NCBI RefSeq assembly: GCF_028617075.1
Contig: NZ_JAQKGV010000001.1
Location: 124,001-188,000 of the forward strand
Reading direction: 5' to 3'
Length of the DNA stretch: 64,000 nt
Source of the DNA: Rubrobacter calidifluminis
Lineage (GTDB): Bacteria > Actinomycetota > Rubrobacteria > Rubrobacterales > Rubrobacteraceae
Shown here: piece after piece, positions 48,057 through 51,479 of the stretch
Position numbering within the stretch: the stretch's first letter is position 1
Layout: the number at the start of each line of letters is the position of its first letter
Program-made: the position numbers and the translations under genes
The notes under the pieces: generated by a model
Seen by the model: the letters and a program-made list of their open reading frames with translations, nothing else
Databases searched by the model: none
What the model was told of the DNA's origin: nothing

Positions 48057-48086
48057 AAGATAACAGCATCGGGGCGCCCGTGTGTG

Positions 48087-48092
48087 TATCAT
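48087..48092 (+). promoter_or_regulatory. -10 box of the ArsB-like gene
   Basis: TATCAT is 7 bases before the GTG at 48100, so the predicted transcript starts at or next to the start codon. No Shine-Dalgarno sequence is present, in agreement with a leaderless mRNA. Confidence 0.4.
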
Positions 48093-48099
48093 CACTTGC

Positions 48100-49365
48100 G
48101 TGAGCGGGCTCTTCGCCGGATTGATCTTCGTAGTGACGCTCGCCCTGATCCTCACCCGCCCCCACGGCATCGGCGAGGTTTGGTGGGCTGCCGCGGGAGG
48201 GGTGGCCGTGCTTGTCTTCGGGCTGGTCTCTCTGCAACAGCTCGAGGACATCCTCGAGACGACCCAGGATGCACTGATCTTCCTGATCGGGCTGATGGCG
48301 GTGAGTGCGGTGGCCGAGCGGGCGGGGTTCTTCGAGTGGGTCGCCACCCGGGCCGCCCAGGCAGGGGGTGGGAGCGCGCTCAGGCTCTACGTATTCGTCT
48401 TCATGGCTGGCACCCTCGTCACGGCCTTCCTCTCGCTGGACTCGACGGCGATCGTTCTGACCCCCGTCGTCTATGTGATGGTTTCCCGGCTGCGGCTCCC
48501 TCCGCTGCCCTTCATGTTCGCCTGCACCTACACCGCGAACACCGCCTCGCTGTTCCTGCCGGTCTCGAACCTGACCAACCTGCTCTTCTACAACGCGCTC
48601 GGCCTGGGGTTTTTGCGCTTCTCCCTGGTGATGTTGCTGCCGGCTCTGCTTGCGGTGGTGGCGAACGCGGCGGTGTTCTTCTGGCTCTTCCGGCGGGAGA
48701 TCAGGGGTTCTTACGGTGCGAAACCGGGCCTGTTCATTCCGCGGGAACCGGCGTTTTTCCGGCTCGCCGCGGCGGGTGTCGCGGTTCTGCTCGCCGGTTT
48801 TTTCGTGGCCTCCGCCCTCGGGGTCCCGATCGGGGTGGTCTCGCTGTGCGGTGGGGTGCTGCTGGTGGCCACGGCCCGCTGGCGCGGGTGGGTGGGGCTG
48901 CGCGAGGTCGCTGGCTCTGTGTCCTGGGGGCTCGTCGTGCTCGTGGTCGGCCTTTTCGTGGTGGTGCGGGCGGTCGAGAACGCGGGACTTTCTGAGGTGG
49001 TGCGGGCCGCCTACACCGCGGCGGGTTCCTGGGGTGGCCCGGCCGGCATCCTCGTCGTCGCCGCCGGGACGGCACTTGGGGCCAACCTGGTCAACAACGT
49101 GCCCATGGCGGTGGTCTCGCTCGGGGTGCTCCCGGAGGTCCACCACCCTGCTCTGGCCTACGCCTCGCTGCTCGGGACCAACATCGGCCCCAACCTCACG
49201 GTCGTCGGGTCGCTGGCGACCCTGATCTGGTTGTCCATCGTCCGCGGGCGCGGGATGGAGATAACCTCCCGCGAGTATCTCAGGGTGGGGATGGTTGCCA
49301 CCCCGGTGATCCTGGCGGCCGCATCGCTCGGGCTCTGGATCTCGCTCGGAATCTTCGGTCCTTAG
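48100..49365 (+). CDS. ArsB/SLC13-like ion transporter superfamily permease
   Basis: A 421-residue protein with about 11 membrane segments. Family features: LIFLIGLMAVSAVAERAGFFEWVA, VTAFLSLDSTAIVLTPVV, YTANTASLFLPVSNLTNLL and ANLVNNVPMAVV with LLGTNIGPNLTVVGSLA, the duplicated hairpin motifs of the ArsB and citrate/sodium superfamily. ArsB exports arsenite; other members exchange anions or sodium and protons. No arsR or arsC is adjacent, so arsenic is only one possibility. The frame is open from GTG 48082 but GTG 48100 fits the promoter. The universal-stress gene follows 12 bases downstream. Confidence 0.83.
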   Translation: MSGLFAGLIFVVTLALILTRPHGIGEVWWAAAGGVAVLVFGLVSLQQLEDILETTQDALIFLIGLMAVSAVAERAGFFEWVATRAAQAGGGSALRLYVFVFMAGTLVTAFLSLDSTAIVLTPVVYVMVSRLRLPPLPFMFACTYTANTASLFLPVSNLTNLLFYNALGLGFLRFSLVMLLPALLAVVANAAVFFWLFRREIRGSYGAKPGLFIPREPAFFRLAAAGVAVLLAGFFVASALGVPIGVVSLCGGVLLVATARWRGWVGLREVAGSVSWGLVVLVVGLFVVVRAVENAGLSEVVRAAYTAAGSWGGPAGILVVAAGTALGANLVNNVPMAVVSLGVLPEVHHPALAYASLLGTNIGPNLTVVGSLATLIWLSIVRGRGMEITSREYLRVGMVATPVILAAASLGLWISLGIFGP

Positions 49366-49377
49366 GGGGTGCTCTCT

Positions 49378-50082
49378 TTGCGCGCGATGGTCTGTATCGA
49401 GGTGAGAGACCGGGAGCGGGTGGTGTACGGTTGTTCCCGGTACCTGGCGGGGGTGCGGGAGGTCCTGCTCACGCACGTTCTGGACGAGAGGGCCCTCCGG
49501 GGCTACGACCTCGCGTTGCAGGGGCTGCTGGGGAGACGCCAGCCGCGGCCGGACGAGCTGCTCAGGGAGGCGGAGTCCGCCGCGCTGGAGATGCTGGAGG
49601 AGGCACGGGCTCTGCTCTCCACCCTCCTCCTGGAAGGGACGGAGATCGAGGGCCTCCTGCTGCACGGCAGGCCGGAACACGAGCTGGTGCGTGCCGCCGC
49701 GGCGCGGGAGGTGTCGGCGCTTATCCTGGGCCGCGGGGGCGCCGACGGCGAGTCGGCCGTGGTTTCCGGCAGGATCTCCGGCTGGCGCCGCAACCCCCAC
49801 GGCGAGATCGATGGTTTATACCTGGAGGACGGAACGGAGGTACGCTTCCCCCCGCACCGGGGAGCACAGATCGAGACCGCCCTGCACGAGGGCGAGAACG
49901 TGGAGGTCCGGGGCGAGCGACGCCCCCGACACGTCCACGCCCGCCTGATCACGTCCCTCGACTCCGGGCGTTCCCTCGAGGCCCACCCACCCCCCCAGCA
50001 CGAGCCACCCAGGCGTCACCTGGGGCACGTGGCACGTTTCGTAACCGACCACGCCGGTTGCGACGTGGTGCTTCTGGGCTGA
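49378..50082 (+). CDS. Universal stress protein-like with an inserted OB-like domain
   Basis: The ends of the protein look like one UspA domain: RYLAGVREVLLTHVLDE, LEEARALLSTLL, GRPEHELVRAAAAREVSALILGRGG, then at the very end RHLGHVARFVTDHAGCDVVLLG. Between them about 75 residues (SGRISGWRRNPHGEIDGLYL, EDGTEVRFPPHRG, EGENVEVRGERRP) form a small beta-rich domain reminiscent of OB folds. In normal USPs the segment between ILGRRG and the terminal helix is about 12 residues. The ATP-binding GxxG is only partly kept. TTG 49378 follows GGGGGTG; GTG 49369 is an alternative. It follows the ArsB-like gene by 12 bases. Confidence 0.75.
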   Translation: MRAMVCIEVRDRERVVYGCSRYLAGVREVLLTHVLDERALRGYDLALQGLLGRRQPRPDELLREAESAALEMLEEARALLSTLLLEGTEIEGLLLHGRPEHELVRAAAAREVSALILGRGGADGESAVVSGRISGWRRNPHGEIDGLYLEDGTEVRFPPHRGAQIETALHEGENVEVRGERRPRHVHARLITSLDSGRSLEAHPPPQHEPPRRHLGHVARFVTDHAGCDVVLLG

Positions 50083-50100: not shown

Positions 50101-50340
50101 CTAGAGCCCGAGTTTCTCGCTGATCCTGCGCCGGTCGAACCCTATTATCACCTCGCCGTCTATGACGGTGGTCGGGGTCGCCTGCGAGTTCATCCGAACC
50201 ATCTCCTGCATCGCGTCGAGGTCGGTACGGATGTTCTTTTCGGTGAACTTCACGCCCTTCTGAGATAGAAACTCCATCTCCTGATGGCAGGCGGGTCAAC
50301 CCGGCTGGGTGTAGACGATTACCTCATGCTCTTCGGTCAT
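50101..50340 (-). CDS. Glutaredoxin/NrdH-like protein with UGA-encoded selenocysteine (probable)
   Basis: Read through one in-frame TGA, this frame gives a complete 79-residue thioredoxin-fold protein: VIVYTQPG, Sec15 in the UxxC motif (GUPAC, Cys18), a helix EMEFLSQKGVKFTEKN, the cis-Pro loop ATPTTVIDG (Pro56) and FDRRRISEKLGL. The TGA (50296-50298) lies exactly where relatives have TGC for the first catalytic Cys. The ATG 50340 is 8 bases after GGGAGGA. A stem-loop starts 15 bases after the TGA (see below). Such proteins reduce disulphides or ribonucleotide reductase. Codon 15 could alternatively be a nonsense mutation, making it a pseudogene. Convergent with the USP gene and divergent from corA. 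Confidence 0.8.
50262..50280 (-). promoter_or_regulatory. Candidate bacterial SECIS element
   Basis: Downstream of the UGA the minus strand reads GAGATGG-AGTTT-CTATCTC, a 7-bp stem (one G-U pair) with a 5-nt loop. The loop begins 22 nt after the UGA, and has G at its second position, which agrees with the published bacterial SECIS pattern (16-37 nt, G in the first two loop bases). Structure read by eye only. Confidence 0.55.
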
Positions 50341-50398
50341 GCGCTTTTCCTCCCTGTCTTGTGTCCACGTGGTGTTACTACCCGGCTCCCGCTTCGGT

Positions 50399-50404
50399 TA
50401 CACT
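50399..50404 (+). promoter_or_regulatory. -10 box of corA
   Basis: TACACT is 7 bases before the ATG at 50412. With no Shine-Dalgarno sequence before that ATG, a leaderless transcript is likely. Confidence 0.35.
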
Positions 50405-50411
50405 CTTGCTC

Positions 50412-51479
50412 ATGCCGGGGAGGCCGGTAAAGAGGGCAGGACGTGGGCACCTGGGGGTCTGGGACCCGACGGGCGGTGAGGCGCGGCGTGGGAGCGGCCT
50501 CCCCGTCGAGGCCGGGGAGGAGGAGATCTCCATCCTTGCGCGGGCCGGGGGGCGGGTGTGGGAGGTGGAGGCGGAGGGCCTCGCCGGGACACTCCGCGAG
50601 GCGGAGATGGTCTGGATCGACCTGCTCCGGCCCCACGACCGCTCGAGGGCGATCCTGGAAGAGGTGCTCGAGCTCGCTCCGCTCACCGTCGAAGACTGCC
50701 TCTCCCCGCTGCGCATGCCCAAGGTCGACTTTTTCGGTGGCGGGGCCTTCGTTGCAGGCTTCGCTGCCCGCCTGGAGGGGGATGGGCCGGTCCGGTTGAG
50801 CGCCGTAGAGGTCGACCTGGTCTTCGGCGAGAGCTGGCTGGTCACCGTGCGCGACGGGCCCCTCGAGGAGGTACGCGCACGGATCGGGCAGAGGCTGGCG
50901 TCGCCCGCCGGTACCGGAACCCCGGGCGCCGAGCTGGCCTACCGTGCTCTGGACGCGCTCGTGGACGGTCACCTGCCGGCGCTCGTGCGGGTCGCGGCTG
51001 CCGCAGAGGAGCTCGAGTCCAGCCTGGACCCCACGCGCGAGCGCGCCTCGCTCGGGGCACTGGAGGCTCTGATCTCGATGAAGCGCGACCTGCAGGCGTT
51101 CCGGCGGCTCGCGGTGGCCCAGCAGGAGGTGATCCGACGCCTCGGGCGGAGCTTCCGGGAGCAGCGCGAGTACCTCTCTGACGTCTCGGACAACCAGCGC
51201 GAGGCGGTGGACATGGCCGATGCAACCCGCGACTACGTGGACGGGGCGATAGAGGCCTACAGGATGCGCCGCGACGAGCGCAGCGAGCTCGGCATCCGGC
51301 GCCTCACCGTGCTCGCCGCCCTGCTCGGCCCGCTGAGCGTCCTCGCCGGATGGTACGGGGTGAATTTCAAGCACCTTCCCGGCCAGGACAACCCCGCCGG
51401 CTTCTGGGTCTTCATCGCCGTGCAGCTCGTCTTCGTCCTGGTCTCCGCCCTCTACCTGCGCCGCCGGGGGCTGCTCTAG
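50412..51479 (+). CDS. CorA-family divalent cation transporter with GVN instead of GMN
   Basis: A 355-residue CorA/MIT protein. The soluble N-terminal part (about 1-240) has EMVWIDLLRPHDRSRAILEE and the long helical stalk LGALEALISMKRDLQAFRR; two C-terminal membrane helices frame YGVNF (316-318) where the selectivity motif is normally GMN. Naturally altered motifs occur in ZntB and other subgroups and may change ion preference, so Mg2+ is likely but not certain. The start ATG 50412 fits the -10 box just upstream. Divergent from the selenocysteine glutaredoxin gene. Length is typical. Confidence 0.86.
   Translation: MPGRPVKRAGRGHLGVWDPTGGEARRGSGLPVEAGEEEISILARAGGRVWEVEAEGLAGTLREAEMVWIDLLRPHDRSRAILEEVLELAPLTVEDCLSPLRMPKVDFFGGGAFVAGFAARLEGDGPVRLSAVEVDLVFGESWLVTVRDGPLEEVRARIGQRLASPAGTGTPGAELAYRALDALVDGHLPALVRVAAAAEELESSLDPTRERASLGALEALISMKRDLQAFRRLAVAQQEVIRRLGRSFREQREYLSDVSDNQREAVDMADATRDYVDGAIEAYRMRRDERSELGIRRLTVLAALLGPLSVLAGWYGVNFKHLPGQDNPAGFWVFIAVQLVFVLVSALYLRRRGLL

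Follow-up and report, generated by a model that had tools for sequence, protein, structure and literature searches.

A glutaredoxin-like gene with an in-frame TGA codon

The window analyzed here is a 64,000-nt stretch of a Rubrobacter calidifluminis contig, from a genome of 3.09 Mb that is 96% complete. The original prediction placed a selenoprotein gene on its minus strand, and the following features were assigned at that locus.

50101–50340, minus strand: very probable selenoprotein glutaredoxin-like gene, 79 amino acids, ATG to TAG, with U as residue 15 (TGA=U translation, Pfam, AlphaFold2)
50296–50298, minus strand: in-frame TGA, inferred selenocysteine (Sec), first position of the UxxC active site (aligned TGA/Cys codons)
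50262–50280, minus strand: predicted bacterial SECIS stem-loop GAGATGG-AGTTT-CTATCTC, 7 bp, 15 nt after the TGA (pairing, covariation, rare codons)
50348–50354, minus strand: Shine-Dalgarno-like GGGAGGA, 7 nt before the ATG (from sequence)
50361–51479, plus strand: CorA-family Mg2+/Co2+ transporter, divergent neighbor (Pfam PF01544, 150.6 bits)
49369–50082, plus strand: universal-stress-protein domain protein, convergent neighbor (Pfam PF00582, 24.9 bits)

Re-translation of minus-strand positions 50340 to 50101 gave the predicted 79-residue glutaredoxin frame, MTEEHEVIVYTQPG-U-PACHQEMEFLSQKGVKFTEKNIRTDLDAMQEMVRMNSQATPTTVIDGEVIIGFDRRRISEKLGL-stop, which runs from an ATG to a TAG and contains one TGA. 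This single in-frame TGA is codon 15 (50298–50296) and falls, as proposed, on the first Cys site of a CxxC motif (G-U-P-A-C). The GGGAGGA ribosome-binding sequence was also located (50354–50348), with a spacing of 7 nt to the ATG. Ordinary gene callers tend to shorten selenoprotein genes of the glutaredoxin kind, and standard annotation would probably miss or truncate this one.

The protein resembles known selenoprotein glutaredoxins

The protein, with its Sec scored as Cys, passed the Pfam Glutaredoxin model (PF00462; 48.9 bits, gathering cut-off 22.9). The second half of the earlier description "glutaredoxin/NrdH-like" was loose: NrdH-redoxins (TIGR02194) are alike in size, fold, and possible thioredoxin reductase dependence, but the score of 39 bits is far below the cut-off of 85.75. 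The best NCBIfam match was the YruB family (TIGR02196), which aligned over nearly the full length but at 70.8 bits did not reach the cut-off of 88.55, and the score against the NCBIfam Grx3 model was likewise below cut-off. The Uxx-star family (NF041212) also comprises small glutaredoxin-like proteins whose first active-site position is Sec; the window protein is not filed as a member because its 58.2 bits (again with Sec as Cys) fall below the curated cut-off of 66. With both YruB and Uxx-star below their cut-offs, the selenoprotein glutaredoxin is claimed by no NCBIfam model searched, and by sequence it is a slightly divergent member of a known Sec-glutaredoxin kind.

An AlphaFold2 model built from the alignment (pLDDT 94) had standard glutaredoxin topology, with a thioredoxin fold, an active site preceding helix 1, and a Thr-Pro loop. 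P56 and the second active-site Cys are invariant in the alignment, and T55 is nearly so. The best solved-structure match was Clostridium oremlandii Grx1 (PDB: 7c10; TM 0.90, 51% identity), which was also matched by phmmer (E 1.9e-19); judged by these comparisons, the nearest characterized protein is this selenoprotein glutaredoxin-1. According to the paper on that structure, both C. oremlandii cGrx1 and MsrA, its partner and proposed substrate, occur natively as selenoproteins (PMC7642778). The window protein shares the U-P-x-C site and the Trx/Grx fold of cGrx1 (PDB: 7c10, 7c12, 7c13); reduction of Sec-MsrA, with glutathione as the reductant of the glutaredoxin, is proposed for cGrx1, whereas for the window protein the likeness is one of sequence and model. 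The thioredoxin-like protein BC3987 (PDB: 3zij, 3zit) has the same fold (TM 0.87–0.90, 36%–38% identity) but was deposited as a thioredoxin-like protein and, unlike the window protein, gave no sign of being a selenoprotein in the search output.

Sec-glutaredoxins are already known as a protein kind; what is new here is the Rubrobacteraceae gene. The family table of a 2006 survey includes three Sec-glutaredoxins from bacteria; the survey also credited Rubrobacter xylanophilus with five selenoproteins, with SelD named in the loss table (PMC1794560). A 2026 review counts glutaredoxin among the known selenoprotein families and describes the UXX-star families (PMC13188914). No description of the Rubrobacteraceae Sec-glutaredoxin gene was found in the literature searched. 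The gene adds a well-supported selenoprotein and SECIS element to the actinobacterial lineage of Rubrobacter.

The genome encodes the selenocysteine machinery

A search for selA, selB, selC (tRNA-Sec), and selD, as proposed in the original prediction, found all four in the genome, so a lack of Sec machinery does not count against the selenoprotein reading. The selA (518 bits) and selB (335 bits) genes are adjacent on contig C16 and are directly followed by the tRNA-Sec gene, which scored 69.7 bits (gathering cut-off 47) and was called as tRNA-Sec(tca) by ARAGORN. The selD gene (352 bits) is on a different contig from these three and has its own in-frame TGA near the N terminus (KAG-U-AS; L021, G000:C2:170543–171460); SelD is therefore probably a selenoprotein itself, and the genome thus probably encodes one or more selenoproteins besides the glutaredoxin. 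Across the family, selA was present in all 22 good-quality genomes, and the tRNA-Sec model matched above cut-off in 29 of 39 genomes.

TGA is conserved at codon 15 among relatives

Relatives were drawn from whole genomes of the family, a phylum sample, and public genomes, and the aligned codon was read in each. TGA is located at exactly codon 15 in 20 sequences of the close subfamily: 14 from Rubrobacteraceae, including Rubrobacter marinus, and 6 MAG sequences from Methylomirabilota (NC10), Nitrospirota, and Chloroflexi. The protein is strongly conserved on both sides of the codon in this close Sec subfamily, and the neutral decay of the frame that would have spoken against the prediction was not seen. 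Cys homologs have TGT or TGC instead and were found in two genomes of the window's genus (G026 and G027), in G015, and in two Alphaproteobacteria. Both same-genus genomes use TGT. Loss of the Sec machinery was considered as the reason and ruled out, as selA is retained in G026 and G027, and G027 also has an above-cut-off tRNA-Sec. Because these two genomes use Cys despite the machinery that they retain, Sec is not indispensable. The Cys versions (L026 in G027, L027 in G026) occupy a different locus from that of the window gene and have a broken SECIS stem; CorA/PlsY neighbors were not found at L026 or L070. This clear Sec/Cys contrast inside a single genus, in which a Cys codon goes with a broken stem, provides a clean natural control of SECIS function.

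A second Sec subfamily, mostly with the motif QPG-U-[LM]FC, comprises 10 Rubrobacteraceae sequences (L041–L043, L046, and L064–L069) with TGA at the same codon. Its stem is slightly shifted in register, with 6–7 bp and an [AG]GTT loop ([AG]GUU in RNA). Both Sec-glutaredoxin subfamilies co-occur in several Rubrobacteraceae genomes. A tree of 74 columns resolved the number and direction of Sec/Cys switches poorly.

The window's genome also has a Cys glutaredoxin paralog with a +2-nt frameshift (L002/L004; G000:C4:193825–194048). The surrounding 2.2-kb stretch is 99.7% identical to one in G016, a genome of another genus in which the frame is broken in the same region, and 99.3% identical to one in G015, where the frame is intact. 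Such near identity suggests either recent horizontal transfer or assembly cross-contamination.

A conserved stem-loop follows the TGA

The predicted 7-bp stem-loop, starting 15 nt after the UGA and with G in the second position of the loop, was borne out. Its arms lie at 50280–50274 and 50268–50262, and the AGUUU loop is at 50273–50269. Taken from this one gene, the stem is weak evidence and is not relied on, because 3.3% of synonymous-codon randomizations (668 of 20,000) yielded a comparable stem-loop and the single-sequence folding z-score was only −1.2, which is not unusual. An Rfam scan of the window returned two tRNAs as the only RNAs and no SECIS match.

Comparison among relatives argues that the stem is beyond chance, through conservation in 20 sequences with compensatory changes. 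In the stem alignment (A1; 20 Sec sequences, 19 of them distinct), the seven base pairs were paired in 98.5% of cells. Column pair 23–33 was U-A in 11 sequences, A-U in 5, and C-G in 2, and pairs 22–34 and 24–32 alternated between A-U and G-U. The covariation score was 0.274 versus 0.159 in shuffles, and none of 500 shuffles equaled the real alignment in percentage of paired cells, number of double-changed cells, or covariation; these covariation counts are inflated by kinship among the aligned sequences, and the signal consists of one column pair with double changes plus wobble changes. Pairing dropped to 74% or less when one arm was slid as a control. The codons of the 3′ arm offer independent support for the stem: of the 14 Rubrobacteraceae genes, 12 have CTA and 13 have TCT there, whereas in eight window genes CTA makes up 0.8% of Leu codons and TCT 6.1% of Ser codons. 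The stem was broken in all five Cys homologs examined, with two to four of the seven pairs lost. On these comparisons, the SECIS record of the glutaredoxin gene is unusually clean.

Proposed mechanism

At the sequence level, it is near certain that the gene encodes a selenoprotein glutaredoxin, and the active-site TGA is very probably read as Sec. The original interpretation is supported by the machinery genes, the TGA in 20 orthologs, the covarying stem, and the loss of that stem in Cys forms. We are highly confident that the product is a Sec-containing, glutaredoxin-like thiol/selenol-disulfide oxidoreductase with Sec placed at residue 15 via SelB and the SECIS element, where both insertion and catalysis are inferred. 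SelB carrying Sec-tRNA-Sec would bind the stem-loop that starts 15 nt after the UGA, and the ribosome would then put Sec at residue 15 in place of termination. In this scheme, a disulfide or other oxidized substrate would be attacked by the selenolate of G-U-P-A-C, and the resulting selenenyl-sulfide would be resolved by Cys18. Three features favor dithiol-type selenol/thiol-disulfide exchange: the UxxC site, the second Cys, which is invariant, and the loop with T55 and P56. Regeneration would most likely proceed through thioredoxin reductase/NADPH or a low-molecular-weight thiol. A thioredoxin reductase is encoded in the genome (410 bits), and the profile for the mycothiol ligase MshC gave only a below-cut-off match, probably to the paralogous cysteinyl-tRNA synthetase.

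Alternative explanations

Three alternatives do without Sec. The first is that the TGA is a sequencing error, or that a Cys glutaredoxin gene is decaying and has newly acquired a nonsense codon; in its favor, the TGT of G026 and G027 is one base from TGA. The conservation pattern already refutes this explanation, and we give it almost no weight: the 20 sequences with TGA at this codon come from many genera and several phyla, the frame is otherwise intact, and the covarying stem exists in the TGA forms only. That UGA is a true stop, ending a short leader that is followed by a second product with its own start, is very improbable. In-frame starts do exist downstream (ATG at residue 22), but a product of this kind would lose β1 of the glutaredoxin fold and the catalytic residue, whereas the sequence on either side of the TGA aligns over its full length with intact Cys homologs. 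Nor would a true stop account for a stem of the SECIS type in a genome that has selABCD. Readthrough by a near-cognate tRNA or by tRNA suppression could insert Trp, Cys, or another residue in place of Sec, and the existence of Cys homologs means that Cys would be functional at this position. Such readthrough is exceedingly unlikely given the full Sec pathway in the genome and a stem that has the spacing of a SECIS element and a conserved G-U loop, which the Cys forms have lost.

A further alternative accepts Sec but sees the protein mainly as a ligand for metals or metalloids (Hg, As) or a partner in organometal detoxification rather than as a general disulfide reductase. Five NC10/Nitrospirota relatives have a homolog of MerB (alkylmercury/organomercurial lyase) just upstream of the glutaredoxin gene on the same strand, and one of these MerB homologs has an in-frame TGA itself. 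The window's genome also has a MerB homolog, on a contig other than that of the glutaredoxin, and together these two observations make a metal-related role possible, albeit at low probability. For UXX-star proteins, the 2026 review raises the possibility that Sec binds metals (PMC13188914). Against this, the genes that adjoin the glutaredoxin in several Rubrobacteraceae genera are CorA, PlsY, and/or FAR-like rather than mer genes, and the UxxC site and fold are of the redoxin type; we therefore consider a mainly metal-related function unlikely. The oxidoreductase reading is preferred, and the Rubrobacteraceae neighbors point to no partner or function for the gene.

MerB homologs beside the glutaredoxin gene in other phyla

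The gap between the MerB match and the glutaredoxin gene is about 20–60 nt in L083, L085, L087, and L088, where the glutaredoxin lies at about 3001, 1662, 2431, and 3001 of each locus, respectively, and about 260 nt in L084. One speculative extension, which we hold to be improbable, is that the UxxC glutaredoxins of Rubrobacteraceae, NC10, Nitrospirota, and Chloroflexi form a distinct and widely shared subfamily that works with organomercurial or metalloid detoxification enzymes such as MerB, with Sec serving as a metal/organometal ligand or as reductant of the lyase. The in-frame TGA of the L084 MerB homolog (L084:2608–2610) aligns with a conserved Cys (SRCP..FFC in relatives) and precedes an 8-bp stem whose loop is UGUA; this homolog is thus a candidate Sec-containing MerB. 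At the window locus, an ArsB/CitMHS-type transporter (48082–49365) lies two genes from the glutaredoxin, an arrangement common to G001 (L071) and not seen at the other loci examined.
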